NCBI RefSeq assembly: GCF_902170785.1
Contig: NZ_CABHYG010000013.1
Location: forward strand, 62,001-126,000
From: Yersinia proxima
GTDB lineage: Bacteria; Pseudomonadota; Gammaproteobacteria; Enterobacterales; Enterobacteriaceae
Direction of reading: 5' to 3'
Length of the DNA: 64,000 nt
Part shown: in pieces, positions 1-16,953 of the stretch
Layout of the letters: every line of letters begins with the position of its first letter
Numbering within the stretch: the stretch's first letter is position 1
The notes under the pieces: model-generated
What the model saw: the letters and a program-made list of their open reading frames with translations, nothing else
The model's database searches: none
Told to the model about the DNA's origin: nothing
Position numbers and translations under genes: made by a program

Positions 1-735
1 CTGGATGCTCACAACAACTACCAGATCAATACCGGGGTAGCACGTAGCGGCGTGTTAGTCAGTGGTAACTATAACCACATAGGGAATAGTGCGGATATTA
101 ACGCCAATGCCAGTTATCAGGAGGGGCAATACTCTTCCGTTGGTTTAGGTATTCAGGGCGGCGCAACTATCACGGCTGAAGGCGGTGCTCTACATCGGGT
201 GAATACCCTCGGCGGCACCCGATTGTTACTGGATACCCAAGGTGTATCTGGTGTTCCGGTTCAGGGGTATGGCTCATCGATACGCACTAACCAGTTTGGT
301 AAAGCGGTGGTCGGTGATGTGAATAGCTACTACCGCAATCGGGCCAGTATAGATATTGATAACCTGGCTGATGATGTTGAAGCCAGAGGAACCGTAGCAC
401 AGGTCACACTGACCGAAGGGGCTATTGGTTATCGCCGCTTTAATGTGATTTCCGGCGAAAAAGCGATGGCAATGATACGGATGGCAGACGGCACATCTCC
501 ACCATTTGGAGCCACCGTGTTAAATGAAAATCAGCAAGAGACCGGCATTGTTAACGATGATGGTTCTACTTATCTCAGTGGGATCAAAGCCGGTGAAACT
601 ATGCTAGTAAACTGGAATGGTCAGGCGCAATGCAGCATCACCTTACCGAAGGCTCTTTCTCCAGCAATACTGGCGAATCTACTGTTGCCTTGCCAGCCAA
701 TAGCCGCGGGGGATAAACCGCCGGTATCACAGTAG
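1..735 (+). CDS. Fimbrial outer-membrane usher, C-terminal part (5' end outside window)
   Basis: The frame is open from base 1, so the gene starts upstream and only about 244 residues are seen. Visible are the last strands of the usher barrel and the C-terminal plug-like domains: a VPVQGYGSSIRTNQFGKAVV stretch where PapC/FimD-type ushers carry their conserved post-barrel segment, then a final domain with PFGATVLNENQQETGIVNDD and two cysteines. Ushers form the outer-membrane pore through which chaperone-bound pilins are threaded. The downstream chaperone and minor pilins fit this. The family is clear; the fimbrial type cannot be fixed from the fragment, although the gene order resembles MR/P- or Pap-type operons. 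Confidence 0.93.
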   Translation: MDAHNNYQINTGVARSGVLVSGNYNHIGNSADINANASYQEGQYSSVGLGIQGGATITAEGGALHRVNTLGGTRLLLDTQGVSGVPVQGYGSSIRTNQFGKAVVGDVNSYYRNRASIDIDNLADDVEARGTVAQVTLTEGAIGYRRFNVISGEKAMAMIRMADGTSPPFGATVLNENQQETGIVNDDGSTYLSGIKAGETMLVNWNGQAQCSITLPKALSPAILANLLLPCQPIAAGDKPPVSQ

Positions 736-811
736 AAAGATTTAGTAACGAACCTGCAGGTAACTGCCCGTTCAGATCAGCGAAAACGTTGGTAACACCA
801 GGTTCTGACAA

Positions 812-853
812 CATTAATTCGAAAGAAAAAGTCATTAATTCGAAGGAAAAAGT
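812..853 (+). repeat. 21-bp tandem duplication covering the chaperone ribosome-binding site
   Basis: Bases 812-832 and 833-853 are two adjacent copies of a 21-bp unit (cattaattcgaaRgaaaaagt) with one difference. The second copy reads gaagga and supplies the Shine-Dalgarno sequence for the ATG at 855; the first has gaaaga instead and ends just before an ATT. The duplication explains why the open frame extends upstream with a repeated INSKEKV peptide that is probably not translated. Confidence 0.8.
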
Positions 854-854
854 A

Positions 855-1601
855 ATGAAATTGAATAACAAATTGCGTATCACCACCATTTTGGTGACGG
901 CACTGATGACTCAGCAAGCAACAGCAGCGATTGCACTGGACAGAACCCGGGCCATTCTCAATGGTGGCGATAAGTCGATGAGCTTGAACATCAGTAACCA
1001 GAATAAGGAGCTACCTTATCTGGCGCAGGGATGGATTGAAGATGAGCAGGGTAACAAAATCAATTCACCGTTGACGGTTGTTCCACCGGTTCAGCGAGTA
1101 GAACCTGGCGCAATGAGCCAGTTAAAAATACAAAGTTTGCCTGCGGTAAATCAGTTGGCGCAAGACCGGGAAACCTTGTTCTATTTTAATCTGCGTGAAA
1201 TCCCACCACGTTCGGACAAGCCCAATACTTTGCAGATTGCCTTACAAACGCGCATCAAACTTTTCTATCGCCCAACCGGGATCGTGCCACAAAAGGCCGA
1301 TATGTCGACTCCCTGGCAGGAGAAGCTACAGCTGACTCGTCAGGGTGATCGCTATCAGGTGAATAACCCGACGCCGTATTACATCACGCTGGTCGATGCC
1401 AGTGAGAGCAAAACCGGCAAAACAGCAGCAGGTTTCAAGCCGCTGATGATCGCACCAAAAGCGCAGGGCATGTTGGATGTGAGTGCTGCAGCATTAGGCA
1501 GCAAGCCAGTGCTGACCTATGTCAACGATTTCGGCGGTCGCCCTAAATTGATCTTTGGCTGCACGGGTAGCACGTGTTCTGTGGTGGAAAGTATCAAGTA
1601 A
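855..1601 (+). CDS. Periplasmic fimbrial chaperone (PapD/MrpD-like)
   Basis: A 248-aa protein with a cleavable signal (MKLNNKLRITTILVTALMTQ, cut near ATAA) and a mature start IALDRTRAILNGG typical of PapD-family chaperones. The family hallmarks are visible: LYFNLREIPP-like segment (FYFNLREIPPRS), LQIALQTRIKLFYRP with the conserved IKLFYRP strand, and NPTPYYITL before the second immunoglobulin domain. Chaperones of this family cap pilin subunits by donor-strand complementation in the periplasm and deliver them to the usher encoded just upstream. The ATG at 855 is preferred over the earlier in-frame 789 because it has gaagga 8 bases upstream and gives a clean signal peptide. Confidence 0.95.
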   Translation: MKLNNKLRITTILVTALMTQQATAAIALDRTRAILNGGDKSMSLNISNQNKELPYLAQGWIEDEQGNKINSPLTVVPPVQRVEPGAMSQLKIQSLPAVNQLAQDRETLFYFNLREIPPRSDKPNTLQIALQTRIKLFYRPTGIVPQKADMSTPWQEKLQLTRQGDRYQVNNPTPYYITLVDASESKTGKTAAGFKPLMIAPKAQGMLDVSAAALGSKPVLTYVNDFGGRPKLIFGCTGSTCSVVESIK

Positions 1602-3189: not shown

Positions 3190-3738
3190 ATGATGAATAA
3201 TTTAAATCTGCTGATGCGTTGTGGACACACTATTTTAAGCATAATTATTTTGAGTTTTTTTGGGACTATACCTGTATTAGCTGCTGACAATATGCGTTTT
3301 CATGGCGCATTAGTCGCTGAGCCTTGTACGATTCGCCCTGGTGATGACGCTATTAGTTTAAATTTTGGCACTGTCGTTGATAAATATTTGTATTCAAATC
3401 AGCGGACGTTAGGAAAACAGTTCCAAATACATTTGGTAGATTGTGATATCAGCTTAGGTACAACCGCCAATATTATTTTTACTGGTAATGATAGTGTTAA
3501 TTTACCCGGATTGTTGGCAGTTGACAGTAGTGATATGGGAATAGCCATTGGTCTTGAAACCTTGGCAGGAAAACCGTTGTATCTAAACCAATCGAGTGAC
3601 GATATTGCACTTGATACGGGTAATAACATTATTACTTTGAAGGCTTATGTCCGGGGTGAACCGGAAGCGATAACTCAACGTACCATTAAGCGTGGTGAGT
3701 TTAGTGCAGTTGCAACATTTAACCTGCAATATTATTAA
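3190..3738 (+). CDS. Minor fimbrial subunit 4
   Basis: A 182-aa pilin with a signal peptide ending near VLAADNM, a first cysteine in EPCTIRPGDD, a second in LVDCDI, and a C-terminal AVATFNLQYY strand. It is less like the three preceding pilins and closer to the MrpF/PapK-style minor subunits in having LNFGTVVDKYLY and a long C-terminal GEFSAVATF donor-strand partner. It is probably the adaptor nearest the adhesin-like protein encoded next. Two ATG codons (3190 and 3193) are possible; both follow taggacta. Confidence 0.88.
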   Translation: MMNNLNLLMRCGHTILSIIILSFFGTIPVLAADNMRFHGALVAEPCTIRPGDDAISLNFGTVVDKYLYSNQRTLGKQFQIHLVDCDISLGTTANIIFTGNDSVNLPGLLAVDSSDMGIAIGLETLAGKPLYLNQSSDDIALDTGNNIITLKAYVRGEPEAITQRTIKRGEFSAVATFNLQYY

Positions 3739-3837: not shown

Positions 3838-4665
3838 ATGGAACCTAAACGAATGACACAGCCTAATATGCAATTAAGTTATAAATATTGCTGGCTAATC
3901 GCTTGCGTGCTGTTCTTATTCCCGCTTTATAGCCAGGCAAGTGCCTGGGTTTCGACTCAAACTCGAATAGGCGGCCAATATACCGGAACATTCTCTTGGC
4001 CGAGTGAGGAATTGACCAACGTACTTTGTACATCCTCATCTTGCTCTGTGGCTATCTGTCACTACTCCAGCCTTGAAGCTGAGCGGTGCCTTAACCCAAG
4101 TGCGGCATCAACGCGAGTGGTTGTTTCTCAAGGGGCAACAGCGCAAACCATGCGAGATGCGTTTGTCAGTCGCAACGGTATTTCTGGAAGTTGGAGCACA
4201 ACGACCCCGGTTTTGAGTTCTTCAAATACCTGTTTTGGCATTTTATATTGGCAAGGGGTGGGGGATTTAAACTTTAGTGGCAATCTGATCCCTGGCTCCT
4301 ATTGTGGTGCAGTTCCTCCGACTCCGGAAACCTGCGATATTACCGGTGATGTTTATATTAACTATGGCTCACTTAATCAGCAAAGTGTTGATGGTGCAAT
4401 AAAAAGTGAACCGCTGACCATCAACTGTACTGTCAGAACATCCGTGAAGTTAACTTTGGTGGGAGGACAGAACATCAACATGGGACAAAATGGCAATCTG
4501 ACGTCCACGTTAAAAGTATCAGGGCAAGACTTATCCAATGGTGTCACGGTAACTGCAAACATCGGTAATACCTCTTTCCCAATTGAATCGACACTTCATG
4601 CGCTCGCATTGCCGGACGCAGGAACATTTAGCGGAAGTGGAGTTGTTATTATGTCTTACCTCTAA
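3838..4665 (+). CDS. Two-domain fimbrial tip adhesin, MrpH-like
   Basis: A 275-aa protein with a signal peptide ending at SQASA, an N-terminal domain of about 160 residues rich in paired cysteines (LCTSSSC, ICHYSS, ERCLN, NTCFG, GSYCG), a short proline linker (PPTPETC) and a C-terminal pilin domain (ITGDVYINYGSL to SGSGVVIMSYL). Size, architecture and last-gene position match MrpH-type tip adhesins. The N-terminal domain contains a single histidine, so the three-histidine zinc site described for Proteus MrpH appears absent; that comparison is from memory. A 99-base gap precedes it, so it may also have its own promoter. ATG at 3853 is an alternative start. Confidence 0.8.
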   Translation: MEPKRMTQPNMQLSYKYCWLIACVLFLFPLYSQASAWVSTQTRIGGQYTGTFSWPSEELTNVLCTSSSCSVAICHYSSLEAERCLNPSAASTRVVVSQGATAQTMRDAFVSRNGISGSWSTTTPVLSSSNTCFGILYWQGVGDLNFSGNLIPGSYCGAVPPTPETCDITGDVYINYGSLNQQSVDGAIKSEPLTINCTVRTSVKLTLVGGQNINMGQNGNLTSTLKVSGQDLSNGVTVTANIGNTSFPIESTLHALALPDAGTFSGSGVVIMSYL

Positions 4666-4677
4666 ATACAAAGTTAT

Positions 4678-4700
4678 ATGCATTCATTATCTGAGTGCAT
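4678..4700 (+). terminator. Hairpin after fimbrial operon
   Basis: A 9-bp stem (4678-4686 with 4692-4700, one G-T pair) and a 5-base loop lie 13 bases after the adhesin-like gene. The following sequence is AT-rich but without a clean T tract, so termination is plausible, not certain. Confidence 0.4.
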
Positions 4701-4992
4701 GATTATTATGAATATTAAATAACGGTTAAAGTTAGTCGTTTTTATTTTCATAAGTTGAGTTTTATACTGTTATATAATATATAGCAGGGGTTACTCGTGG
4801 GGTTTATTTATTGTATTATTTAAAATAAAATAAATTCTATTTTTGGTTGTAATTCATTGTGCTTATATAGTATAAATCTCTTGCGTTATATTAATTGGGT
4901 GCTGTTTTTTACCTAAAAGTAAAACGCATACTTCAATGGGCTATTAAATAAATAGGCTATAATTTTTTATTTTTATTTTAAGGATTTTTCTC
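4701..4992 (+). promoter_or_regulatory. AT-rich promoter region of the peptide gene
   Basis: A long gene-free, very AT-rich stretch between the fimbrial genes and the small peptide gene. A perfect TATAAT sits at 4958-4963; no good -35 hexamer is seen at the usual distance, suggesting an activator-dependent or curved-DNA promoter. Transcription from there would give a leader of about 20 bases ending in taagga, a ribosome-binding site 9 bases before the ATG at 4993. Confidence 0.5.
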
Positions 4993-5181
4993 ATGAAAAA
5001 GATGAACATGGCAGTTGCAAATACAATCGTTGGCGGTACTGGTCAAATATGTAAAGATACTTTCCAGTGGCAGACTAGCGGTACAACTGCAACTTGCATG
5101 GCAGTTACTACTTGTACTGATAAACACGGTAAAGTATTAAGCCAAACTTCTGCGCCTAGCAGCATTGCTAACTGCCGTTAA
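4993..5181 (+). CDS. Double-glycine-leader peptide precursor, four-cysteine microcin-like
   Basis: A 62-aa product. Residues 1-15 (MKKMNMAVANTIVGG) form a short leader ending in Gly-Gly, the site cut by C39-peptidase exporters; such an exporter is encoded five genes' length downstream. The 47-aa core has four cysteines (20, 35, 41, 61), many Thr/Ser, and a basic end. Four cysteines suggest two disulfides, matching the DsbA-like gene next in line. The MKKMNMA...NTIVGGT start resembles small enterobacterial peptides annotated as DUF4762, a resemblance recalled from memory. Activity (bacteriocin, signal or lipopeptide) is not known. Start supported by aagga spacing. Confidence 0.8.
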   Translation: MKKMNMAVANTIVGGTGQICKDTFQWQTSGTTATCMAVTTCTDKHGKVLSQTSAPSSIANCR

Positions 5182-5221
5182 TTAAGTATTCGTTAATTTT
5201 AATCGATATTTAATCATATCC

Positions 5222-5269
5222 CAGGTAAGTGCGGGAGGTATTACTGTACTTGCCTGATTTGTTTTTTTT
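5222..5269 (+). terminator. Intrinsic terminator after the peptide gene
   Basis: A 9-bp stem (5222-5230 with 5248-5256, one G-T pair) followed by atttg and eight T residues at 5262-5269. It would end most transcripts after the peptide gene, allowing more peptide than processing enzymes, a common arrangement for exported-peptide precursors. Confidence 0.75.
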
Positions 5270-5390
5270 AATGTGTTATTGATGTCTAAATTCAAGAATT
5301 TTCGCATTAACTGAATGTTAGATAGATTATTTCGCGGGCATAAATGTCGTTTGATTTTGTTTATGTCTTACCTTAACTCTGATTGTGAAT

Positions 5391-5516
5391 ATACCCGTCA
5401 TACTTCAAGCTGCATATGCGTTGGCTGCGTTCAATCACCCGAATCACTTACTACAGTAAGCTCATCGGGACTCTCTCGCTTGCCGCCTTCCTGCAACTCG
5501 AATTATTTAGGGTATA
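5391..5516. repeat. ERIC element 1
   Basis: A 126-bp imperfect palindrome beginning atacccgtcatacttcaagc and ending ttatttagggtat, with the characteristic centre cactta-cagtaag-ctcatcggga and gcttgccgcc arm: the enterobacterial repetitive intergenic consensus, abundant in Yersinia. It lies between the peptide gene and the DsbA-like gene, just ahead of that gene's ribosome-binding site, so it would be part of the operon mRNA. Confidence 0.92.
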
Positions 5517-5527
5517 GGACTGAATAT

Positions 5528-6211
5528 ATGTCTACCCAAAAAAATATGTTTAGAAGTAAGGGATTCTTTATAGGCTACACACTGTTGGTTATCCTTATAT
5601 CTTCATTGATAACAACGGCCTATTTCCACTATTTCGTCCTCAATCAGGATGCACAAGAAAGTTTATTCTCTGTCAGCAGCAGTGACATTGAAAACAGCCC
5701 AATCAAAGACGATAACAGCATTATCGAGATCTTCTCTTATGGCTGCCATTACTGCGCCATCAATGAAGAGAATGTCACCCAATTAGAGAACCGCATGCCA
5801 GAAGGAACGCGTTTTATCCGCCTGCATATCAGCAGTGATAAAACTACTGGCTTAGGGCGTTTCGCACCTATTTTCGCCACTTTATCCGTTATGGGTATTG
5901 AACCGCAACATCGCCAGAGCGCTTACAAAGCGGTACTTGAAGACAACATTGATCTTACTGATAGCCAGCAACTCGAAACCTGGTTAAAAGCGAACGATAT
6001 AGACGTGGCGCTATACCAGCAAGTGAGTCAATCAGCTGAAGTTAAAGCGTTAATCGCCTATATGACGGCAGTGACTGCGCATTACAAGATAGATGCGACT
6101 CCGACCTTTATTGTTGGCAAAAAATGGATAGCGTTGCAGGACAGGGAATTCCCTGCATTCTCAGACCACCTCTTGTCATTACTCGAGCACGATAAGGCGC
6201 TGGAGAAATAA
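5528..6211 (+). CDS. Membrane-anchored DsbA-like thiol oxidoreductase
   Basis: A 227-aa protein: N-terminal transmembrane anchor (about residues 13-33), then a periplasmic thioredoxin-fold domain with the active site CHYC at residues 73-76 (DsbA has CPHC) and a cis-proline loop DATPTFIVG near the end, with a helical insert between as in DsbA. It probably forms or corrects disulfides in the four-cysteine peptide encoded upstream after export, or in an operon partner. The long open frame reaches back through the ERIC; the ATG at 5528 is chosen because the upstream part encodes ERIC sequence and because MSTQKNMF followed by the anchor is a sensible N-terminus. Its end overlaps the next ATG. Confidence 0.85.
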   Translation: MSTQKNMFRSKGFFIGYTLLVILISSLITTAYFHYFVLNQDAQESLFSVSSSDIENSPIKDDNSIIEIFSYGCHYCAINEENVTQLENRMPEGTRFIRLHISSDKTTGLGRFAPIFATLSVMGIEPQHRQSAYKAVLEDNIDLTDSQQLETWLKANDIDVALYQQVSQSAEVKALIAYMTAVTAHYKIDATPTFIVGKKWIALQDREFPAFSDHLLSLLEHDKALEK

Positions 6212-7167
6212 TGAGACTGTTAGCCGTATGGGGTTATTTTGCCTGGCGAAACCAGCTCGATAAGTTGGCTTTTGGTGGGCGCTTGCTCGCTCGCGGGCAG
6301 GGCAAGATAGCAATCTGGCTGTTACGGCACGGTGATTATCGTTTCTTGCTGATGCTCGGTGCATTGCGCCGGGCTTTCGGTTTGGCTTCACGGCGCCAGA
6401 AGAATCTGGCGCAAGTGGCTGCGGCCAACAGCCAGTGTTTGCTCAATGACCACAATAGCCCATCAGCACGGAATTTTATTGGTACTGCACAGCGCCGTCA
6501 GGTGTTGGAACTGGCGGCAACTTATGGCCAAAACCGGCAAGTTTTAGCCCAGTTAGCAGCCTGTACCAAGCAGTTAGACCGTCAGGTTAGTGCGCTGCAT
6601 GAGGCTGGTTCTCCGGTGATTTTGGCACCATTACATATGGTGTCAGATGTGCTGGCTGGCATGGTGGGTGCGAATGTTTATCCGGGTCAGGCGACCGTAG
6701 TCGTTTCTGCCAGCGCGGAGGCTTATGAAGAGCAGGCGCGGCAGATGGGTGGTGTAAATATTTCCTATTGTTCCATCCATGCTGATAGCCGTGCCATCGC
6801 CGGTAACCTGATGGATGCCATCATGGAAGCGGCCGAGCACAAGCGAAATATTATGATTTTTCCGGATATTACGCCGGACTACACCGTTAATAATCAGCCA
6901 GCAGAAACAGCAAAAATGGCCTGCCAACTGTTTAACCGCCCAGCCAATTTACACAGCGGCATCATTCGCCTTGCCAGAGCATTGTCAGCGCAGGTGGTTT
7001 TTTATTATCTGTATTACGACAAAGAAATAAAAATACATATTTATCCGGCAGTTAGTGCGCGGGAAGCGAAAAATAAATTGCCTGAATTGATTGAAACATC
7101 TCTGACGCAGCATCCACAAGATTGGCTGTTATGGCACTCACATTCGTTATTTTTTATTAACGAATAA
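6211..7167 (+). CDS. LpxL/HtrB-like lysophospholipid acyltransferase family protein
   Basis: A 318-aa protein of the lipid A acyltransferase type. Landmarks are APLHMVSDVLAGM around residues 139-151 and IMIFPDITPDY, corresponding to the catalytic and FPD-type substrate blocks of LpxL-like enzymes. The usual catalytic pattern is His, four residues, then an acidic residue; here His142 is followed by Asp146 with three residues between, and position 147 is Val. The operon's own ACP and fatty-acid enzymes suggest that it transfers a dedicated acyl chain from ACP to an acceptor, either the exported peptide or a lipid. It overlaps the previous stop by one base and precedes the exporter gene. Confidence 0.75.
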   Translation: MRLLAVWGYFAWRNQLDKLAFGGRLLARGQGKIAIWLLRHGDYRFLLMLGALRRAFGLASRRQKNLAQVAAANSQCLLNDHNSPSARNFIGTAQRRQVLELAATYGQNRQVLAQLAACTKQLDRQVSALHEAGSPVILAPLHMVSDVLAGMVGANVYPGQATVVVSASAEAYEEQARQMGGVNISYCSIHADSRAIAGNLMDAIMEAAEHKRNIMIFPDITPDYTVNNQPAETAKMACQLFNRPANLHSGIIRLARALSAQVVFYYLYYDKEIKIHIYPAVSAREAKNKLPELIETSLTQHPQDWLLWHSHSLFFINE

Positions 7168-7192
7168 TGTCACTGACGAAGAATAGTAGAAA

Positions 7193-9343
7193 ATGGAAAA
7201 GATAATCCCAACGCTAGTTTTTCAAAGCGAAACTAATGAATGTGGTTTGGCCTGTATTGCGATGCTGGCACAGACGCAGGGCATCAATGCACCACTGGAA
7301 AGTTTACGTGAGCGTTATCCTGCCTCTGGGCATGGCACATCACTGGCCACGCTTTGCACTATTCTATCTGAGTTGGCAATACCGGCTTATCCGGTGGTGT
7401 TTGAACATCAGGAACTGTCAGCCTTACCATTGCCCGCCATCTTGCATTATGGTGCCAACCATTATGTGCTGCTGGCGTATCGTAAAGGTAACTATGTCTG
7501 TGTCATGAACCCGGCTATCGGGCAGCAGTTACTGCCGCTGGATGCACTGAAAGCAGAAATCAGTGGTTATGCGCTGGTACTGGATCCGGAAACGCCTGCC
7601 TCACCTGATGCGGTGGAGAAGATTGAGCACAGCAAGCGACTCAGTGCGCTCGATTGCATGAGCTTGAAAGAAACGGCCAATATTCGCGGCATCTATTGGC
7701 TGATGACGCTGGCGTTTTTGATTTCGCTGACACTGTTTATTATGCCGACCATGGTCAGCAGCGCCATCAATGATGTGCTCTCTTCTGCGGGCGATAAAGA
7801 TTTCCCCTATTTCTATTTTCTGCTGGCTTTTGTGGTCTCCACGTCACTCGCTTTTTGCGTGCGATATATCACTGAGCGTTATATCAAACACTTTGTGGTG
7901 CTTAACAGTGTCGCGGGTTTCTCTCGCTTACTCAGTCACTCGCTTAACTTTTTTGATAAACGAGCGCCGGGTGACATCTTTAGCCGGTTCTCGAACTGGC
8001 AGATGGCGGCAACGCAAAAAATCGAACTGGATAATGGCCTGCGTACTGATTGGATAATTGGTGCCATCGCACTGGCAGTAATGTGCTATATGAGCCCGCT
8101 GCTGGCGATGGTATCTGCTATTGGTGTCATGTTGATGGGCCTTATCAGTATTTGGGCCATCTACCGTGACCGCTACTACACCCAGCAGTTGCAGGTGAAA
8201 GGTGCCGAGCAAAGTGATTTTATTCTGGAAACTATTCAGGGTTTTTCCACCATTAAATCGGCCGGTTTATCCAGCCAGCGCCAAGGGGTATTTGCGGGTT
8301 TGGCGCTGTCGTTATTCACGACGTTGCAGAAGAAGAAAATCTACGATCAGGTTAAAAATAGCCTGTATCAGCTGATTGGTAGTCTGGAAATGGTGTTCTT
8401 TATGCTGCTGGCTTTGCCGCTGTTGAAGCAAGGGACACTGAGTCTGGGGGAGTTCTTCGCCTATAGCTTTGTGCGCGAGATTTTTACCTCCTATATCACC
8501 AAGATTTTCTATGCGATTTTGCAGAAAAACCAGTTGCACGTTATTGATATCCGCGCGCGCGACCTGTTTCCGGCCGGGCAGTCTACACCACCGGAAAAGC
8601 GTTCATCCATTCCGACTGCACCACCGACATTTACGCAGAAATTGGTCTATCAGAACATTCGCTTCGCCTACGATGCCAGCCAGCCGGTATTGCGTGATTT
8701 ATCGCTGTCCCTGACGCGCGGGCAAAGTGTGGCGATTATCGGTGAGTCCGGTGCCGGGAAAAGTACTTTGCTAAAAGTGATGGCAGGATTGATGCCACCA
8801 CAGCAAGGGCAGGTATTGGTCGATGGCGAAGCTGTTGATTTCCAACAAGCACATGCTCTGTTCTTTCTGCAAAGTCAGGAAGACATTTTGTTTAATGCGT
8901 CGGTATTACAAAACATCACTTTGTTTGATGGACATCTGGATACCGATAAGCGCCAACGTATCGAACGCTCATTGCAAGGGTTGCAATTAACCCAAGTCAT
9001 CGAAAAATTACCCGGTGGCCTCAACGCGCTGGTGCGCGAAAGTCACGCTGCGCTTTCATTGGGGCAACGTCAGCGCTTATTGCTGGCTCGCGCTATGTAC
9101 AGCGATTGTCCGGTATTGGTACTGGATGAACCCACGGCCAACCTGGACGAAGAAACCGCTCAGCAGGTGATGCAGACTCTGCTTACCCATTGTCGTGAAT
9201 ATCAGAAAACTTTGATAACCGTAACTCACAGTGAAAGTGTGTTACCGCTGTTTGACCGTGTTTTCCGCTTAAATGACGGCCAATTGGTACGCCATGCTCA
9301 ACCGATGACCTCAAGTCACCTGACGCCAGTGGCGGTTAACTGA
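7193..9343 (+). CDS. C39-peptidase ABC exporter (bacteriocin processing and secretion)
   Basis: A 716-aa fusion: N-terminal C39 peptidase (residues 1-140, with Gln11, catalytic Cys17 in TNECGLAC and His90 in GANHYVLLAY), a six-helix membrane domain (about 165-445), and an ATPase domain with Walker A GESGAGKST near 517, signature SLGQRQR and Walker B VLVLDEPTANLDE. Proteins of this kind remove Gly-Gly leaders while pumping the peptide out, which fits the 62-aa precursor upstream. The third catalytic position, 16 residues after the His, is Asn106 (VMNPA) instead of the usual Asp (DPA). Papain-type enzymes use Asn there, so activity is still plausible. Stop and next start overlap (TGATG). Confidence 0.93.
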   Translation: MEKIIPTLVFQSETNECGLACIAMLAQTQGINAPLESLRERYPASGHGTSLATLCTILSELAIPAYPVVFEHQELSALPLPAILHYGANHYVLLAYRKGNYVCVMNPAIGQQLLPLDALKAEISGYALVLDPETPASPDAVEKIEHSKRLSALDCMSLKETANIRGIYWLMTLAFLISLTLFIMPTMVSSAINDVLSSAGDKDFPYFYFLLAFVVSTSLAFCVRYITERYIKHFVVLNSVAGFSRLLSHSLNFFDKRAPGDIFSRFSNWQMAATQKIELDNGLRTDWIIGAIALAVMCYMSPLLAMVSAIGVMLMGLISIWAIYRDRYYTQQLQVKGAEQSDFILETIQGFSTIKSAGLSSQRQGVFAGLALSLFTTLQKKKIYDQVKNSLYQLIGSLEMVFFMLLALPLLKQGTLSLGEFFAYSFVREIFTSYITKIFYAILQKNQLHVIDIRARDLFPAGQSTPPEKRSSIPTAPPTFTQKLVYQNIRFAYDASQPVLRDLSLSLTRGQSVAIIGESGAGKSTLLKVMAGLMPPQQGQVLVDGEAVDFQQAHALFFLQSQEDILFNASVLQNITLFDGHLDTDKRQRIERSLQGLQLTQVIEKLPGGLNALVRESHAALSLGQRQRLLLARAMYSDCPVLVLDEPTANLDEETAQQVMQTLLTHCREYQKTLITVTHSESVLPLFDRVFRLNDGQLVRHAQPMTSSHLTPVAVN

Positions 9344-10518
9344 TGCGTATCAATCTGAAAAATAAGAAACATCAGCTCATACTGGGGCTGTTTATTGTTT
9401 CGTTGCTGATTATCGGTAGCGTCATTGCGTTGTCAATCTCGGATAACCAGCAGGATGCACCGCAGTTAACTGAAACCATTGGGCGCGGTGATATCGAACG
9501 GAATGTCATGGCAACCGGCAGTTTAAAACCTTCATTGCAGGTCAATGTGGGCGCGCAGGTGAACGGGCAACTCACCAAACTGTATGTCAAACAGGGAGAT
9601 CGCGTTACCCGTGGTCAGTTGTTGGCTGAGATAGATCCGACTTTGCAGCAAAACGAATTGCGTAAATCGGAAGCTGAATTACAGAGTGCGCAGGCGCAGA
9701 AGCAGGCCAGTCAGGCTTTGTTACGCCAGTACCTGCTCGAGTTCCGCCGCCAACAGACCTTGGCAAAAGAAGGTTCTGGCGTGAAAAGTGCGCTGGAAAA
9801 AGCACAAGCGCAATATGACAGCCAGCTAGCGCAATTGCATGTAAATGAAGCGCAAATTGTGCAAAGCCAAATGGCGATGGAAACAGCAAAAGCCAATCTG
9901 GGCTTTACCCGCATTATGGCTCCGATTGACGGTGAAGTGCTGGGTATTGTCACTAAAGAGGGGCAAACTATTGTTTCTTCTCAAACTGCACCGACCATTT
10001 TGGTGCTGGCGAATGTCGATACCATGACGGTACACACGCGCATTTCAGAAACCGATATTCTCAAAGTCAGTGTAGGGCAACCCTTGTGGTTCTATGTGGT
10101 CGCTGACCCCGAGCGTCGCTATGACAGCCGGATGGATGCTATTCAGGAAGCGTCGGCTGAAAGTTTGCGCGAAGACAGTTCTGGCTCAGCAAACAGCCAG
10201 CAACCTTCTGCGGTTTATTACAACGGTATATTCAACATTGCCAACCAAGAGCGGTTATTACGCACATCAATGACTGCGCAGGTATTCATTATCACCGCGC
10301 AGGCAAAAAATGTGTTGCGAGTGCCACTGTCTGCGTTGGGTGAACAACAACCCGATAAGCGCTATCGGGTGCAGATTATCAACGGCAAACAGACGTCAGT
10401 GCGCTGGGTCTCTGTTGGCCTGCGTAATGCGCAGTATGCCGAGGTGAAAGCAGGGCTGGCGCAGGGCGACCAAGTGCTGTTGCTGGGAACGCCAGCGGGA
10501 GTCAGCAGTGAACATTAA
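9343..10518 (+). CDS. MacA-like periplasmic adaptor (membrane fusion protein)
   Basis: A 391-aa protein with an N-terminal membrane anchor (about 11-31), lipoyl half-motifs split by a long coiled coil (ELRKSEAELQSAQAQKQASQ region, about 100-185) rejoining at FTRIMAPIDGEV, then beta-barrel and membrane-proximal domains. GQLTKLYVKQGDRVTRGQLL and NVGAQVNGQ are typical of MacA-type adaptors. It links an inner-membrane ABC protein to the outer-membrane channel. It sits between the C39 exporter and the MacB-like gene, so it could serve either or both. It overlaps the MacB-like gene by 11 bases. Confidence 0.92.
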   Translation: MRINLKNKKHQLILGLFIVSLLIIGSVIALSISDNQQDAPQLTETIGRGDIERNVMATGSLKPSLQVNVGAQVNGQLTKLYVKQGDRVTRGQLLAEIDPTLQQNELRKSEAELQSAQAQKQASQALLRQYLLEFRRQQTLAKEGSGVKSALEKAQAQYDSQLAQLHVNEAQIVQSQMAMETAKANLGFTRIMAPIDGEVLGIVTKEGQTIVSSQTAPTILVLANVDTMTVHTRISETDILKVSVGQPLWFYVVADPERRYDSRMDAIQEASAESLREDSSGSANSQQPSAVYYNGIFNIANQERLLRTSMTAQVFIITAQAKNVLRVPLSALGEQQPDKRYRVQIINGKQTSVRWVSVGLRNAQYAEVKAGLAQGDQVLLLGTPAGVSSEH

Positions 10519-12484
10519 TGCCGTTCATCCCACTGGTGCACACGATAACCCATTGATTCAACTCAAGGGGATCTATCGCCATTTTACTTCCGGCGCAGAA
10601 TCCGTAGCGGTGCTCAAGAATATCTCATTGTCGATTCACAACGGCGAAATGGTGGCAATTGTTGGTGCTTCTGGCTCTGGTAAATCGACACTGATGAATA
10701 TCATCGGCTGTTTGGATAAGCCCACACAGGGCGAGATGTCGATTCATCATATCCCGACACGGCAGGCCAGCAGTGAACAATTGGCGCAATTACGCAGCCA
10801 GTACATCGGTTTTATTTTTCAGCGCTATCACTTGATGCCGTATTTAACTGCGACTGAGAATGTGGTTATCCCTGCGCTTTATACCGCCATGACCGCCAGC
10901 GAACGCCATGAGCGTGCGGTGTATCTGTTGCGTCGTCTGGGGCTGGGGCAGCATTTACTGCACAAACCGGCACAATTATCCGGTGGGCAGCAGCAGAGAG
11001 TGAGCATTGCCCGGGCCTTGATGAATGGTGCCGGTATTATTTTGGCCGATGAACCTACTGGTGCGCTCGACCGCAGCAGTGGTCAGGAACTGATGAGTAT
11101 TTTGCATGGTCTGCATCAGTCCGGCCACACCATTATTATCGTGACCCACGACCGCAATATCGCCAATCAGGCGCAGCGCATTATCGAAATTAGCGATGGA
11201 GAAATTATTGCCGATCGAACTAATGAGGCAATAGAGGCCAGCGCGATTCAGGCTGCATTACCTGCTCCGATTGCCACCGGCCGGCCGCATTGGTGGCTGA
11301 GTGTTAGAGAAGCGATCAAAATGGCCTGGCGTGCCCTGCTGGGACATCGAATTCGCGCCTTTTTATCAATGCTGGGCATCATTATCGGCATTTCGTCGGT
11401 AGTGTCCTCTATGGCGGTGGGAGAAGGTGCCCGTCAGGAAATTCTCAATGAAATTAGCCAATTGGGAACCAGCAATCTGGACATTCGCCCAGGGCTTGGT
11501 TGGGATAAACCGCGCCCGGATTTTGAGCGCGCACTCTCGCAGGCCGATATTGAGCTACTGAGCCAGCAACCTTATGTCGATAGCCTGTCCCCAGTGGTGA
11601 GCAAAATGGTCGCCGCGGTGCGGGGCGACAAACAAGTGATGGTATCGCTTTCTGGCGTGAGCCATGGATTCTTTCAGGTAAAAGGGCTGAATTTTTCTGT
11701 GGGTGATGGTTTTACCCAGAGCCACGTCAATGCGCGCGAGCCGGTCGTCATCCTGCAACCGGAACTTAGCGATACGCTGTTTGCTGCCGGGCAAAATCCA
11801 CTAGGCGAAATTGTTCAGCTCGATGGTATTCCCTTGCGTGTGATCGGTGTCGCCAGGCGCGGTGGCTCATCCTTTGGTGGGTTACTGGCCGCGTGGATGC
11901 CTTATACCTCACTCACCGAGCGTATTTCAGGTGACATTCCGCTGGAGTCAATAGCTGTGCGGGTGCGCGAAGGTTACAACCTGAATAATGTGCAGCGCGA
12001 TGTTGAGAAACTACTGGAAAGTGCCCACGGTCAGCGCGATTTTTTCATTCTGAGCAATGACCAGATGAGTAAGGCAATTCAAAAAACCTCTGACTCGATG
12101 ACATTACTGATCACCTCGATTGCCGCCATTTCGCTGCTGGTGGGCGGAGTTGGCGTGATGAATATCATGTTGGTGTCGGTGACTGAACGCACCCATGAGA
12201 TCGGTATTCGTCTGTCGGTCGGTGCTCGTCCAGGCGACATCATGACCCAGTTCCTGATTGAAGCGGTGGTGATTTGTACTCTTGGCGGCCTGATAGGGAT
12301 CGTTGGCTCGGCGCTGGCAGGGGTGATTTTCTCGTGGGTTACCCAAGAGTTCACCATGATTTTCACCTGGCCGCCGTTGGTGTTGGCTTGCAGTTTCTCC
12401 GCGCTTATCGGGTTGGGATTTGGCTTTTTCCCGGCGCGCAATGCCGCTCGCTTGCATCCAACTGAGGCATTGGCACGAGAATGA
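10508..12484 (+). CDS. MacB-like ABC transporter (ATPase plus FtsX-type membrane domain)
   Basis: A 658-aa protein: N-terminal ATPase with Walker A GASGSGKST, signature LSGGQQQR and Walker B ILADEPTGALD, then a transmembrane helix, a large periplasmic domain and three C-terminal helices ending in FFPARNAARLHPTEALARE, the MacB/FtsX signature. MacB-type pumps work as mechanotransmitters that push substrates from the periplasm through TolC-like channels; known substrates include microcins, enterotoxin and lipopeptides. In this operon it may expel the oxidised or acylated peptide, or confer self-protection. The last four bases overlap the next gene. Confidence 0.93.
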   Translation: MNINAVHPTGAHDNPLIQLKGIYRHFTSGAESVAVLKNISLSIHNGEMVAIVGASGSGKSTLMNIIGCLDKPTQGEMSIHHIPTRQASSEQLAQLRSQYIGFIFQRYHLMPYLTATENVVIPALYTAMTASERHERAVYLLRRLGLGQHLLHKPAQLSGGQQQRVSIARALMNGAGIILADEPTGALDRSSGQELMSILHGLHQSGHTIIIVTHDRNIANQAQRIIEISDGEIIADRTNEAIEASAIQAALPAPIATGRPHWWLSVREAIKMAWRALLGHRIRAFLSMLGIIIGISSVVSSMAVGEGARQEILNEISQLGTSNLDIRPGLGWDKPRPDFERALSQADIELLSQQPYVDSLSPVVSKMVAAVRGDKQVMVSLSGVSHGFFQVKGLNFSVGDGFTQSHVNAREPVVILQPELSDTLFAAGQNPLGEIVQLDGIPLRVIGVARRGGSSFGGLLAAWMPYTSLTERISGDIPLESIAVRVREGYNLNNVQRDVEKLLESAHGQRDFFILSNDQMSKAIQKTSDSMTLLITSIAAISLLVGGVGVMNIMLVSVTERTHEIGIRLSVGARPGDIMTQFLIEAVVICTLGGLIGIVGSALAGVIFSWVTQEFTMIFTWPPLVLACSFSALIGLGFGFFPARNAARLHPTEALARE

Positions 12485-13887
12485 CCAGATTGATGATTAA
12501 ATTTTCAATATTACTGATAAGCCTGCTGCTTATGGGCTGTGGCTCACTACTGAAAAGCGAATATCAGCGGCCGATGTTGTCAGTTCCCGATGAGTGGCGA
12601 GTGAAAGATACCGGGGGCGGTTACCTGCACCATAGTGTGCACTGGTGGGAGAATTTTGACGATCCTCAACTGTCGGACAGCATCAGTCGCATGTTGGTCA
12701 GTAATAACGATTTGGCCGCCGCAGGTCTTAAGTTGCAACAGGCACGCCTGACGGCAGGGCTGACCAATACCAACATGACACCGAACGTTACCTTAACTGG
12801 CGCAGGCAGCAACACTCGCTCGTTGAATGAAAATACTCAGCCGCGTGAGAGCTACAGCACCTCGCTTGGGCTGAGTTACGAGCTGGACTTGTGGGGCAAA
12901 CTGGCCCGCGCCCGTGAACAATCTGCGTGGCTGGTGAATGCCACCGAGCAGGATCGACAGGAAACTGCGTTGTCACTCATTGGCACCACCGCGGATCTCT
13001 ATTGGCAGATTGCTAAATTCAATCAGCAGTTGAGTTACCAACAGGCGGCGTTAGCTATTTCGCAAGATACGCTCAACATCGTGCGTTCACGGCTCGCGGC
13101 GGGTGATGCCAGTGAAATTGAGTTATTGCAGGCGCAACAAACCCTGTTGGATAGGCAAAATCAATATCAAAACCTTGAGCAACAACGGGAAGCTGCGCGT
13201 AATGCCATGGCATTACTGTTTAACCGCGCCCCAGATTATCGCCAGTCCGAACGCCAGTCATTGGATTTAAAACAACAAGTCGCGATAGCGAACAGTGTGC
13301 CACTACAGGTTATTGCTCAGCGGCCAGATGTGCAGGCGGCCGAGTGGCGCTTGCGTGCGGCATTGGCTGGTTCCGATGTAGCGAAACTGAATTTCTACCC
13401 GACACTTTCGCTGGGAGCGACATTAGATGCCGGTAGTGCGGTGTTTTCACAATGGTTTAGCAACCCGAGCCGGACACTCAGTGCCAACAGTGCGTTGCCT
13501 TTCTTACAGTGGAACACCGTGCAACTCACCATTGACCAGTCAAAGTTGGATGTGAAATTGGCTGCCGTGGATTTTCGCAGCAAGGTTTACAGCGCCCTTA
13601 AAGATGTCGATGACGCCATGACGGCACGGCTGAGTTATCAGCAGCAAAAACAGAATCAGTGGCAGAACCTACAACTTAGTCAGCGGCGGTTAACGCTGAC
13701 TAACAGCCAATACCAGGCAGGTGCCGTTTCATTTCAGACCTTACTGGATGCGCAGGATGCCCTGCTGACCAGTGAAACCAGTTTGCTCGAACTTCAATAT
13801 AACTATCTGAATGCCACCATGAAATTGTGGTTGGCGTTAGGTGGCGGCGTTGATAACAGCAGGGACAGTAAAGGAATTAAATCATGA
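12481..13887 (+). CDS. Outer-membrane efflux lipoprotein (TolC/NodT family)
   Basis: A 468-aa protein with a lipoprotein signal (LLLMGCGS, lipidated Cys near residue 20) and two repeats of the outer-membrane efflux fold: SLGLSYELDLWGKLARARE in the first half and a VPLQVIAQRPDVQAAEWRLRAA segment in the second, both hallmark motifs of OprM/NodT-type channels. It should form the trimeric exit duct for the MacAB-like and possibly the C39 exporter encoded upstream, so the locus does not rely on chromosomal tolC. It overlaps the ketosynthase gene by four bases (ATGA), showing that transport and fatty-acid genes form one transcription unit. Confidence 0.93.
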   Translation: MTRLMIKFSILLISLLLMGCGSLLKSEYQRPMLSVPDEWRVKDTGGGYLHHSVHWWENFDDPQLSDSISRMLVSNNDLAAAGLKLQQARLTAGLTNTNMTPNVTLTGAGSNTRSLNENTQPRESYSTSLGLSYELDLWGKLARAREQSAWLVNATEQDRQETALSLIGTTADLYWQIAKFNQQLSYQQAALAISQDTLNIVRSRLAAGDASEIELLQAQQTLLDRQNQYQNLEQQREAARNAMALLFNRAPDYRQSERQSLDLKQQVAIANSVPLQVIAQRPDVQAAEWRLRAALAGSDVAKLNFYPTLSLGATLDAGSAVFSQWFSNPSRTLSANSALPFLQWNTVQLTIDQSKLDVKLAAVDFRSKVYSALKDVDDAMTARLSYQQQKQNQWQNLQLSQRRLTLTNSQYQAGAVSFQTLLDAQDALLTSETSLLELQYNYLNATMKLWLALGGGVDNSRDSKGIKS

Positions 13888-15134
13888 CGAATACAGTTAA
13901 ACAGCGCCGGGTGGTTGTCACCGGGTACGGCAGTGTGACCCCGATGGGCATGACTGCGCAGCAAAGCTGGGAAGCTATTATGGATTATAAATTGGGTTAT
14001 CGTTATTACGATAAATCCGCGCAGGGGATCAAGTCGCGCTTTTTTGGTCTGCTGGAGGCTGAACCTAATTTGAAATCAGTCCCTGCCGCAATACGTCGCC
14101 GCCTGCCGCGCTATGCCCGACTGGCATTGGCCGCCGCACGAGAGGCCATGACGATGGCATTCGCTGAGAAATCTGTCGCAGATTATTACGATTTGCTCGA
14201 TTGCGGCACTATCATCGGTAGCGGCTGGGCAGGGCAGGATGAAACCCATGATAACTATGAAGGTTATCTGGAAACCGGCTTGGGCACCCCGTTTGGCTGT
14301 TTCTTATCGATGCCGAATGCGGGTACTGCAGCATGTAGCTTGTATTGGGGATTGCGCGGTTATCAGAATTCACCGATTGCCGCCTGCGCCACCGGCACCA
14401 TAGCCATTGGTGATGCATTTGAAATTATCCGCAGCGGGCGAGCCTCCATGATGCTGGCAGGGGCGGGTGAGTCTCTGCGCAGTAATGCGGCAGTATGGAA
14501 TATCGATATTTTGGGTGCCCTGGCGCGCGAACAGGAAGATGCCAGCAAAGCCAGTTGCCCATTCAGTTTGGACCGAAACGGTTTTGTGTTATCCGAAGGC
14601 GCGGCGGTGCTGTGTCTGGAAGAACGTGAAGGTGCGATTGCCCGTGGCGCGAATATCCTCGGCGAAATTAAAGGCTACGGTAACTATTCTGATGCGTTTG
14701 ATTTCACTGCCCCGGCAGAAGACAAAGTGGCGCGGGTGAAAACCATTAAGCACGCCTTGCAACAAGCGGGTTTGAGCGCCGATGAGATTGATTATGTCAA
14801 CTTACACGGCACCTCGACTCAGCTTAACGATCTGAATGAAACCCAAGCTATTAAGCAAGCCTTTGGTGCAGCGGCCTATACCACGCCACTGTCGAGTACC
14901 AAATCCTATTCTGGGCATTTGATTGCCGCGGCGGGTAGCTTTGAATCCATTATCTGCCTGCAAGCGCTGGAACATCAGATGATGCCCGCGACCTGTAATC
15001 TGAAAAATGCTGACCCACAGTGTGACCTTGATTACATCAGTGAAGGGCATCGGCCAAAAACCTTGCGCAATACGCTGAACCTGAGCTTCGGTTTTGGTGG
15101 TGCGAATGCCGCATTGGTTATCGGGTTGGATTAA
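13884..15134 (+). CDS. Beta-ketoacyl-ACP synthase (FabF-type, KAS II fold)
   Basis: A 416-aa condensing enzyme with the full catalytic triad: Cys168 in ACATGTIAIGDA, His308 in NLHGTSTQLND and His345 in KSYSGHLIAAAGS. The thiolase-fold ends with SFGFGGANAALVI. It would elongate an acyl chain by decarboxylative condensation of malonyl-ACP, presumably on the ACP encoded two genes later. It is diverged from housekeeping FabF (VVTGYGSVTPMGMTAQQSW start, then a YRYYDKSAQGIKSRFF insert), pointing to specialised metabolism. No malonyl transferase or phosphopantetheinyl transferase is encoded nearby, so those would be borrowed from primary metabolism. Confidence 0.92.
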   Translation: MTNTVKQRRVVVTGYGSVTPMGMTAQQSWEAIMDYKLGYRYYDKSAQGIKSRFFGLLEAEPNLKSVPAAIRRRLPRYARLALAAAREAMTMAFAEKSVADYYDLLDCGTIIGSGWAGQDETHDNYEGYLETGLGTPFGCFLSMPNAGTAACSLYWGLRGYQNSPIAACATGTIAIGDAFEIIRSGRASMMLAGAGESLRSNAAVWNIDILGALAREQEDASKASCPFSLDRNGFVLSEGAAVLCLEEREGAIARGANILGEIKGYGNYSDAFDFTAPAEDKVARVKTIKHALQQAGLSADEIDYVNLHGTSTQLNDLNETQAIKQAFGAAAYTTPLSSTKSYSGHLIAAAGSFESIICLQALEHQMMPATCNLKNADPQCDLDYISEGHRPKTLRNTLNLSFGFGGANAALVIGLD

Positions 15135-15136
15135 GT

Positions 15137-15952
15137 ATGAACTCGACTTTTAACTACCACTACAGCCTCAACGACGCCGAGCGTTGGGCTGAATTTTCCG
15201 GTGATTACAACCCGATCCATTTTGACCTGCAACATGCGCAGCATCTGGGGCAGGAGCAACTGACTGTTCACGGTATGCGCGCCATGCTGGATATCAAATA
15301 TCAGCTCAGTACGGCGTTATTACCACTTTTTCCAGAGGTTGAATTCCTGCGTTTTAATGCCCGCTTACGTCAGCCGGTACAGTGTCATACCTCGTATCAA
15401 CTGCAACTCAGCGCAGTGGCAGGGCAGGTGAGCGGTAATCTGATGGATATTGGCAGCGGTGAGAGTTGTTTTACCGGCAAACTGCGCAGTGCGCCGGCAC
15501 TGGTGCAAACGGGCACTGAATGGGTTTCTTTATCTGCGGATAAGGTTTTCCAGTTCAGCCAGCAATTCCTGGGCGATGCATCGCAACCAGCTGAATGCTG
15601 GGGTTTTTTCGATGCCTTACTGTTCAAGCTGTTGGTCGCTGCGCCGCAAACATTGGCAACGGCCAGGCAGGTGTTACCGGGGATTGAAGCTGAAACCTTG
15701 ATTGATGTTTTCAAGTCGGTGCCGGTTATCCAGACTCACCATGATGTGCATTTCAGTACAGATTTGCTGCGCATCAATCATCCAAATGTATTTGTCCGCA
15801 GTGCACTGCAGTATGCCATCGAACCGACACTGATTGTTGGTAGCCCTACCGATGGCTGGGTATTGCGCGCGGCTATTGCGGCCCGCTCAGACTTAGGGCC
15901 ATTAATTACCACAGCAGTAACATTGAAAACGTGGCCGTTAGCCGCGCATTAA
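15137..15952 (+). CDS. MaoC-type hot-dog dehydratase/hydratase
   Basis: A 271-aa protein beginning with the hydratase-2 motif: FSGDYNPIHFD with Asp23 and His28, the catalytic pair of (R)-specific enoyl hydratases and MaoC dehydratases, followed by VHGMRAMLDI. The second half (residues 130-271) is a diverged hot-dog-like region without an obvious second motif. In this operon it would remove water from the 3-hydroxyacyl-ACP made by the ketoreductase. With ketosynthase, ketoreductase and ACP this makes an elongation set lacking an enoyl reductase, so the product could stay unsaturated unless FabI of the cell acts. It starts 2 bases after the ketosynthase stop. Confidence 0.82.
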   Translation: MNSTFNYHYSLNDAERWAEFSGDYNPIHFDLQHAQHLGQEQLTVHGMRAMLDIKYQLSTALLPLFPEVEFLRFNARLRQPVQCHTSYQLQLSAVAGQVSGNLMDIGSGESCFTGKLRSAPALVQTGTEWVSLSADKVFQFSQQFLGDASQPAECWGFFDALLFKLLVAAPQTLATARQVLPGIEAETLIDVFKSVPVIQTHHDVHFSTDLLRINHPNVFVRSALQYAIEPTLIVGSPTDGWVLRAAIAARSDLGPLITTAVTLKTWPLAAH

Positions 15953-15965
15953 AAAGGATAAGACC

Positions 15966-16214
15966 ATGGAAAAGTATCAACAAGTTTATGACACCGTATG
16001 TGAAATGTTGTGTGACGCCAAAGATCTGGAAATGTCGGCACTGTCACCAGAGATGCCACTGCACCAGTTAAAACTCGACAGTCTGGATTATGTCGAATTG
16101 ATGGTGCTGGCAAAGCGTGAATTCAGTGCCACGCTGAATGCTGAGATGTTTATGGAAAATCCGGACATGACCTTAGGAGAGCTTTGCCAGAAGTTGGCCG
16201 AGCAGAAGAAATAA
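15966..16214 (+). CDS. Acyl carrier protein
   Basis: An 82-aa protein with the ACP fold signature LKLDSLDYVELMV; Ser39 is the predicted phosphopantetheine attachment site. Acidic helices II and III follow (AEMFMENPDMTLGELCQKL). It is distinct from housekeeping AcpP and presumably carries the growing acyl chain for the neighbouring ketosynthase, dehydratase and ketoreductase, and hands it to the acyltransferase at the start of the operon. The start has aaggataagacc upstream. Confidence 0.92.
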   Translation: MEKYQQVYDTVCEMLCDAKDLEMSALSPEMPLHQLKLDSLDYVELMVLAKREFSATLNAEMFMENPDMTLGELCQKLAEQKK

Positions 16215-16218
16215 TATT

Positions 16219-16953
16219 ATGAGCAGGCAATGGGTGTTAATTACCGGAGGCAGCCGTGGCATTGGCCGCGCATTGGTCGAAGAACTGGCCAAAGAGTGGG
16301 ATGTTGTTTTTACCTGGCGCAACGGTGAACAGCAGAGCCGCGATGTCATTGCAAGCTGTGAAGGGCTACCCGGTCAAGTGACCGGCTATCGCTGTGATGG
16401 CAGCAATGAAGCGGATGTCGATGCGCTGGCACCGCTATTGCTGGAAAAGTACGGCTCACCGGGCGCGGTAATTCATAATGCTGGCATTACTGGCGACAGC
16501 TTACATATTCAGCAAAATGGTGATAACTGGCGCAGTGTGCTGGATACCAATCTGAATGCGGTTTTCTACTGGAATAAGCATGTCTTGCCGCAAATGATGA
16601 TGCAGGGCGAGGGCGCAGTATTGCTGATGTCTTCGGTGACCGCGATTAAAGGCAATATCGGCCAGAGTGCTTATGGTGCCAGTAAAGCGGCACTGATTGG
16701 CCTGGGCCGCTCGCTGGCGCTTGAGATGGGGCGTTTTAATATTCGCGTTAACTGCCTGTTGCCAGGGGTGATTGACAGCGATATGACCCGCGACATGCCT
16801 GCTGATGCCTTAAAAGGATTACGTAAGCAGATACCATTACGCCGTTTAGGGAATGCACAAGAAGTCGCTCGCGTCAGCGCCTTTATGATCGGCAATGACA
16901 GCCGTTATATGACCGGGCAGACCTTGGTGTTAGATGGCGGGTTGACGGCTTGA
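16219..16953 (+). CDS. 3-ketoacyl-ACP reductase (FabG-like SDR)
   Basis: A 244-aa classical short-chain dehydrogenase: cofactor motif TGGSRGIG (residues 9-16), NAG (IHNAGITGD), catalytic Ser in LLMSSVTA and YGASK active-site Tyr/Lys, ending with MTGQTLVLDGGLTA. The arrangement is that of NADPH-dependent FabG. It reduces the beta-keto group formed by the operon's ketosynthase. It is the last gene of the run that begins with the DsbA-like gene and is followed by a hairpin facing the convergent autotransporter gene. Confidence 0.92.
   Translation: MSRQWVLITGGSRGIGRALVEELAKEWDVVFTWRNGEQQSRDVIASCEGLPGQVTGYRCDGSNEADVDALAPLLLEKYGSPGAVIHNAGITGDSLHIQQNGDNWRSVLDTNLNAVFYWNKHVLPQMMMQGEGAVLLMSSVTAIKGNIGQSAYGASKAALIGLGRSLALEMGRFNIRVNCLLPGVIDSDMTRDMPADALKGLRKQIPLRRLGNAQEVARVSAFMIGNDSRYMTGQTLVLDGGLTA

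Follow-up and report, generated by a model that had tools for sequence, protein, structure and literature searches.

What joins a small exported-type peptide to a lipid-A-type acyltransferase and a set of fatty-acid genes in Yersinia proxima? The question is raised by 11 genes in a stretch of 64,000 nucleotides (the window; contig positions G000:C12:62001-126000, G000 being the source Yersinia genome), all of them in frame at the positions first noted (4993-16953, + strand) and matching their families. They encode a Gly-Gly-leader peptide, a DsbA-like protein, the acyltransferase, a C39 peptidase-containing exporter, a MacA adaptor, a MacB permease, an outer-membrane channel, and a ketosynthase (KS), dehydratase (DH), acyl carrier protein (ACP) and ketoreductase (KR). 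A first-pass annotation had proposed a joint system of peptide export and acyl transfer, recognizable by its gene order in other genomes. That order does recur, and the reading we prefer, in which the cassette would make a disulfide-bonded, fatty-acylated and exported small peptide, seems to us somewhat better than an even prospect.

The precursor belongs to DUF4762 (PF15959; 37.4 bits against a cut-off of 27), which occurs in 29 of the 295 genomes of the family. All 29 carry an adjacent cassette in the shared order peptide, DsbA, acyltransferase, C39, MacA, MacB, channel, KS, DH, ACP, KR, except that KR is absent in L050 and the frames of L078 are broken into pieces; one genome (G070) has two cassettes. 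The KS proteins of these relatives are 57-99% identical to that of the window. From dsbA to KR the ten genes overlap or are separated by at most 25 nt, as had been noted, while the gap between peptide and dsbA ranges from 39 to 513 nt (20 loci). All 11 genes are under purifying selection, with median ratios of nonsynonymous to synonymous substitution rates (dN/dS) of 0.03-0.31 between the window and up to ten other Yersinia (ten pairs per gene, nine for C39 and seven for the channel), and KS and ACP both stand at 0.03. Chance assembly is ruled out by the conserved order and these ratios. Judged from gene order and selection, the peptide and the ten genes are one conserved unit.

This conservation bears directly on a simpler explanation, that the peptide is an unmodified class II microcin and that the fatty-acid genes hitchhike in the island they share with it. 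The combination that marks class II microcins, a Gly-Gly leader with a C39 peptidase exporter, is present here, and two distant loci described below (G298 and G394) have no fatty-acid genes. Hitchhiking is nevertheless unlikely, because the order is kept over deep divergence, the overlaps are tight, selection on KS and ACP is strong, and the genes are adjacent in 29 of 29 genomes. No immunity-like small open reading frame (ORF) family is common to the 16 loci with at least 3 kb of downstream sequence, which would speak against a classical microcin, although such a gene could lie elsewhere; the earlier label "microcin" suits the leader and the exporter. We regard the unmodified microcin as quite improbable. 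Downstream of KR, a winged-helix regulator-like ORF, presumably ToxR-like, recurs in eight loci (L048, L051, L054 and L056-L060), and an ORF that we take by eye to be HD-domain-like recurs in five loci of the same group.

The precursor has the 62 residues, Gly-Gly leader and four cysteines (residues 20, 35, 41 and 61) first described. Across 27 aligned peptides, G14, G15, C35, C41, D43, K44, G46 and C61 are invariant and C20 is nearly so. One pattern used to collect peptides required C.DK; a separate listing free of the DK requirement still showed DK in the cassette peptides, and DK is found in 42 of 42 cassette peptides recovered by BLAST. The predicted model pairs a leader helix with three strands and places DKHG in a turn at 43-47 (pLDDT 74.8, pTM 0.50); its fold had no match in the PDB at E <= 0.001 and no profile match. 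The invariant Lys in this turn may be a natural acyl acceptor; with a model of moderate confidence, the turn serves as no more than a hint. The peptide is also the fastest-changing gene of the cassette, with a dN/dS of 0.31 compared to 0.03-0.11 for the others. Two tandem DUF4762 peptides precede a single cassette in L058, L059 and L061.

The acyltransferase was originally called LpxL-like. Its predicted model does have the PatA/LpxM (lipid A acyltransferase) fold of PF03279, but its score against that family (Lip_A_acyltrans) is 17.8 bits, under the cut-off of 22.3, and all 49 cassette acyltransferases have HX3D rather than HX4[DE]. The source genome has three other PF03279 genes, each with HX4[DE] at the aligned place and only 15-18% identity to the cassette enzyme, which is 93% identical to its Y. 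artesiana counterpart. A fold family that includes the lipid-acylating LpxM and PatA invites a different reading, in which the enzyme and the fatty-acid module produce a specialized membrane lipid (lipid A or another envelope lipid) that protects the producer or adapts the outer membrane, and the peptide is exported unlipidated. This would fit with the absence of any other immunity candidate from the 16 loci. It would also fit with the deacetylase and glycosyltransferase genes that come after the module in one E. coli plasmid and in a cassette remnant on the E. coli TUM9812 chromosome, the latter continuing with CptA and LpxM genes. Against it, the acyltransferase adjoins the C39 exporter in every locus read, even where the fatty-acid genes or other parts are lost or reordered, and the genome's other PF03279 genes lie elsewhere, are distant in sequence and have a different motif. 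We consider a membrane-lipid product unlikely, and peptide acylation the better reading of this enzyme.

For the remaining proteins, Pfam scores are 38 bits for DSBA, 84.4 for Peptidase_C39, 133.9 for MacB_PCD, 142.1 for OEP, 101.2 and 113.2 for ketoacyl-synt, 35.9 for PP-binding and 182 for SDR; MaoC, at 26.9, falls just under its cut-off of 27. The exporter, pump and channel match their families, as first reported, and the window proteins have intact catalytic residues (KS Cys-His-His, KR YxxxK, ACP DSL, MaoC DxNPxH, C39 Cys and DsbA CHYC). Across relatives, the motif patterns were unmatched in one of 49 rows for KS, five and three of 47 for KR, one of 49 for ACP, and four and four of 48 for C39. 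On rechecking, the C39 Cys was present in three of four Cys-misses inspected, the ACP Ser in L066 and the KR YxxxK in 46 of 46; the KS pattern is unmatched in L057. The DsbA-like protein with its CHYC stands, but the start listed for it, 5315, is too early: that frame passes through an ERIC-like repeat, and most Yersinia orthologues have their start no more than six codons from the position that corresponds to 5528. The pump has all three parts of a MacAB-type tripartite system, namely a MacA adaptor, a MacB with periplasmic core domain and an outer-membrane channel. Its NCBIfam scores (MacA 293.9, MacB 729.8 bits) fall short of the equivalog cut-offs of 342 and 966, and it is therefore MacAB-related and not MacAB itself. 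Because the cassette has no enoyl reductase gene, the acyl chain may retain double bonds unless an enoyl reductase of the host steps in.

Distant relatives separate the core from additions. A profile of the acyltransferase matched ten of 394 genomes of the order (E <= 1e-10), seven of the known type and three new (G035, G298 and G394), and among 369 genomes of the class (E <= 1e-8) only the source genome. G035 lacks DsbA and has a two-Cys peptide that keeps LDKHG. The G298 locus has acyltransferase, C39, MacA and MacB alone with a Cys-free Gly-Gly peptide; that of G394 has these four genes and a channel, and it encodes two Gly-Gly peptides (98 and 96 residues). Neither has a fatty-acid module at the locus, to which the search was limited. 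Fatty-acid genes lying apart from peptide and exporter, named in the first-pass annotation as the observation that would count against it, were not seen in any of the 29 DUF4762 genomes, but these two loci without the module go part of the way. Since they keep peptide, acyltransferase and exporter, the module is accessory. As read from these loci, the core is a Gly-Gly peptide, acyltransferase, C39 and MacAB, with the fatty-acid module and DsbA as additions; DsbA tends to accompany peptides with at least four Cys, pSalMiami excepted. The distant relatives drop the fatty-acid genes and DsbA and keep the rest, which points to acyl transfer as the core modification. This composition supports acylation of the exported peptide, which would draw on host acyl-ACP in the simple form and on a custom chain in the full form.

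Mobile relatives show a looser arrangement. The acyltransferase is matched by 14 of 72,556 plasmid records (ten E. coli, two Salmonella, one Chimaeribacter and one Serratia), and a near-identity DNA search found the cassette in 9 of 5426 complete E. coli genomes. No Gly-Gly peptide directly precedes dsbA in three E. coli/Salmonella loci examined (L032, L033 and L034), and IS3-like remnants, named by eye, sit before dsbA in L032 and L034. A related Gly-Gly peptide is found on the same plasmid in 12 of 12 E. coli/Salmonella records with the acyltransferase; beyond these, the plasmid search for this peptide hit just two Streptomyces records, each at E 0.5. Peptide and machinery stay linked even when separated on the plasmid. 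These peptides score under the DUF4762 cut-off (at most 17.1 bits in five plasmid records), as does the distant L135 peptide (12.3 bits). Serratia plasmid pE41 has a different gene order, a distinct Gly-Gly peptide and no DsbA that we could see. The Salmonella CP075023 cassette (L085) has several interrupted genes and is apparently decaying, and the TUM9812 remnant (L086:8005-16085) is of the E. coli type, with a truncated KS followed by DH, ACP and KR, the deacetylase gene after them being a polysaccharide deacetylase.

The first-pass annotation missed a second partner. The peptide gene directly follows a chaperone-usher operon whose tip gene is MrpH-like, and in 28 of 28 testable genomes (G074, on a 14-kb contig, was left out) the cassette has an usher on its own strand no more than 11 kb away, a limit chosen after the data were seen. 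Among these, 18 have the usher directly upstream, nine have it downstream, about 2.9-9 kb past KR, and one (the first G070 cassette) about 11 kb upstream. For comparison, the 314 ushers among the matches listed genome-wide (weaker ones left out) over about 140 Mb would place an usher, on either strand, in about 8% of loci per 36-kb stretch. These genomes are not independent, and changes were hence counted on a KS tree: the upstream arrangement needs three, at least two of them on well-supported branches, and the downstream arrangement two, at least one of them so supported. With at least two well-supported changes, the link to the fimbria has arisen, or been rearranged, on more than one occasion. 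In 25 Yersinia genomes, an orthologous usher (82-100% identity) and the acyltransferase are both present, and adjacent, in 21, and the other four have neither (best usher 43-60%). This distribution suggests that cassette and chaperone-usher fimbria are passed on together as a single unit; joint gain and loss of a fimbria and a secreted-peptide system would tie adhesion to peptide secretion in a new way.

The product may then serve the fimbria itself, as a non-toxic lipopeptide that has a coating, anchoring or tuning effect on the fimbria or on the surface of the adhering cell (as surfactant, in adhesion or in signalling) and is made in the same way as in the reading we prefer. The agreement of usher and acyltransferase in all 25 Yersinia genomes is in keeping with this, as are the lack of an immunity gene in the 16 loci and the variety of fimbriae that adjoin: the MrpH-type tip in the window, K88-like genes in pSalMiami and a CS1-type usher in pE41 (TcfC 56.4 bits). 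So is a recombinase-like ORF, presumably FimB-like, between KR and pilin in four downstream-type loci. In two E. coli plasmids the peptide has an adhesin-regulator gene close by. For some cassettes, however, we could see no fimbrial neighbour, and the rapid change of the peptide is bacteriocin-like; such change is typical of many bacteriocins and also of many surface proteins. We place the fimbrial role on the doubtful side.

Returning to the acylated, exported peptide, we read gene content, conservation, linkage and the predicted acyltransferase fold directly from the sequence, and infer from them every biochemical step. KS, DH, KR and ACP would extend or edit an acyl chain on the dedicated ACP. 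The PatA/LpxM-type enzyme, on the cytoplasmic side of the inner membrane, would transfer it from ACP to the peptide, most likely at Lys44 of the DKxG turn. The C39 exporter would then cleave past Gly-Gly and export the core, the DsbA-like protein would make the disulfides, and MacAB with the outer-membrane channel would pass the product outside. Fimbriated cells could use it over short distances, perhaps as a lipopeptide that attacks the membranes of neighbours; a toxin of this kind, which overlaps with the fimbrial role, strikes us as rather unlikely. That the product forms a new class of lipidated ribosomal peptide, with a chain from a four-gene module (possibly polyunsaturated) placed by an HX3D enzyme on an invariant Lys and a fimbria inherited as its partner, is a tentative proposal that we rate a little short of even.

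Several observations weigh against this scheme. Four of 37 DUF4762 places have no neighbouring cassette (L065, L067, L076 and L079). The acyltransferase scores under its family cut-off, with its catalytic motif displaced by one residue. The invariant Lys could be structural, and the L137 peptides lack DKxG. The pSalMiami peptide has four Cys beside a decayed-looking dsbA-like stretch, breaking the DsbA-Cys rule, and the Chimaeribacter plasmid has a truncated DsbA and no peptide that we recognized. No fimbrial neighbour was seen for the second G070 cassette (13 kb upstream), G035, G298, G394 or the Chimaeribacter plasmid. Acylation and any antibacterial action are themselves what we infer from genes. 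As a separate observation, the DUF4762 ORF in L076 scores under the family cut-off.

Features of the cassette and its upstream neighbours, in window coordinates.
Feature	Position	Strand	Basis
Usher gene, 3' part (853 aa in full; start precedes window)	1..735	+	PF00577 at G000:C12:60798-62441
Periplasmic pilus chaperone-like gene	789..1601	+	Order and similarity, without family search
Four fimbrial subunit-like genes	1655-2200, 2201-2689, 2689-3183, 3190-3738	+	Order and similarity, without family search
Tip-adhesin-like gene	3838..4665	+	MrpH C-terminal domain, 50.4 bits (cut-off 27)
Possible weak terminator hairpin, in the gap from fimbrial operon to peptide gene	4677..4701	+	One hairpin against 0.5 expected from shuffled sequence, a non-significant excess
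Gly-Gly-leader peptide gene, 62 aa, DUF4762	4993..5181	+	Pfam score above cut-off
ERIC-like repeat, between peptide and dsbA-like genes	5384..5516	.	Matches in E. coli DNA search
DsbA-like thiol oxidoreductase, N-terminal hydrophobic stretch, CHYC (corrected start)	5528..6211	+	DSBA family, orthologue starts
PatA/LpxM-fold acyltransferase, HX3D (H142, D146)	6211..7167	+	Predicted fold, motif
C39 peptidase-containing ABC exporter	7193..9343	+	Family match
MacA-like adaptor	9343..10518	+	Family match
MacB-like ABC permease/ATPase	10508..12484	+	Family match
NodT/TolC-type outer-membrane channel	12481..13887	+	Family match
FabF-like KS	13884..15134	+	Family match, catalytic residues
MaoC-type DH	15137..15952	+	Weak family match, DxNPxH
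ACP, dedicated	15966..16214	+	Family match, DSL
SDR-type KR	16219..16953	+	Family match, YxxxK

The chaperone-like gene shares 86-98% identity with its positional counterparts in ten other Yersinia loci. A promoter scan found two candidates where 4.8 were expected. In a DNA search, 4138 of 20,395 E. coli records gave a match, and the 20 matches listed all fall within the repeat, which we take to be ERIC. Compared with E. coli genomes and plasmids, the window DNA had no record covering 80% of the query, the matches listed (20, 20 and 3) lying in the repeat. Directly past KR on the opposite strand, an 804-aa ORF (17042-19456, -) is autotransporter-like by eye, and a 473-aa ORF (19852-21273, -) resembles a di-haem cytochrome c peroxidase, also by eye. 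The fimbria-cassette locus adjoins mutS (named by eye) in the source genome and two other Yersinia (L108 among the loci).

Carriers of the system are not uncommon (21 of 25 Yersinia, 29 of 295 genomes of the family, 9 of 5426 E. coli, and plasmids of Salmonella, Serratia and Chimaeribacter), and the cassette would make the function of DUF4762 testable. A literature search, with most subscription papers outside its coverage, found no paper on DUF4762 and none describing the locus by title or start of abstract. Aryl-polyene type clusters, like the cassette, combine a KS, a dehydratase, an ACP and a KR but no enoyl reductase; they are not known to include peptide or exporter genes. Compared to LpxL/LpxM and PatA, the cassette enzyme is set apart by its low identity to the genome's own PF03279 genes, its HX3D, its sub-cut-off score and its C39 neighbour. 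Class II microcins usually use an HlyD-type adaptor. Those of the colicin V type share the Gly-Gly leader and C39 ABC exporter (PMC8277102); the cassette differs in its MacAB and own channel, acyl module and DsbA-like protein, and no immunity gene was found in the 16 loci. Selidamides, nostolysamides, lipolanthines and goadvionins are ribosomal peptides with a fatty acyl group on a Lys/Orn side chain or the N-terminus, and those described in PMC13060382 and PMC9505594 use GNAT acyltransferases and lanthionine-type rings. Family searches found no GNAT among the 11 cassette proteins. Set against these, the cassette, whose acylation is predicted, has instead a PatA/LpxM-fold candidate, its own KS, DH, ACP and KR, Cys pairs with a DsbA-like gene, and a fimbrial link. 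The comparison suggests that the new elements are a lipid-A-type enzyme and fimbrial linkage in a candidate system for a lipidated, exported ribosomal peptide; if so, a lipid-A-type acyltransferase would join the enzymes that lipidate ribosomal peptides, in a cluster with its own source of a custom acyl chain.

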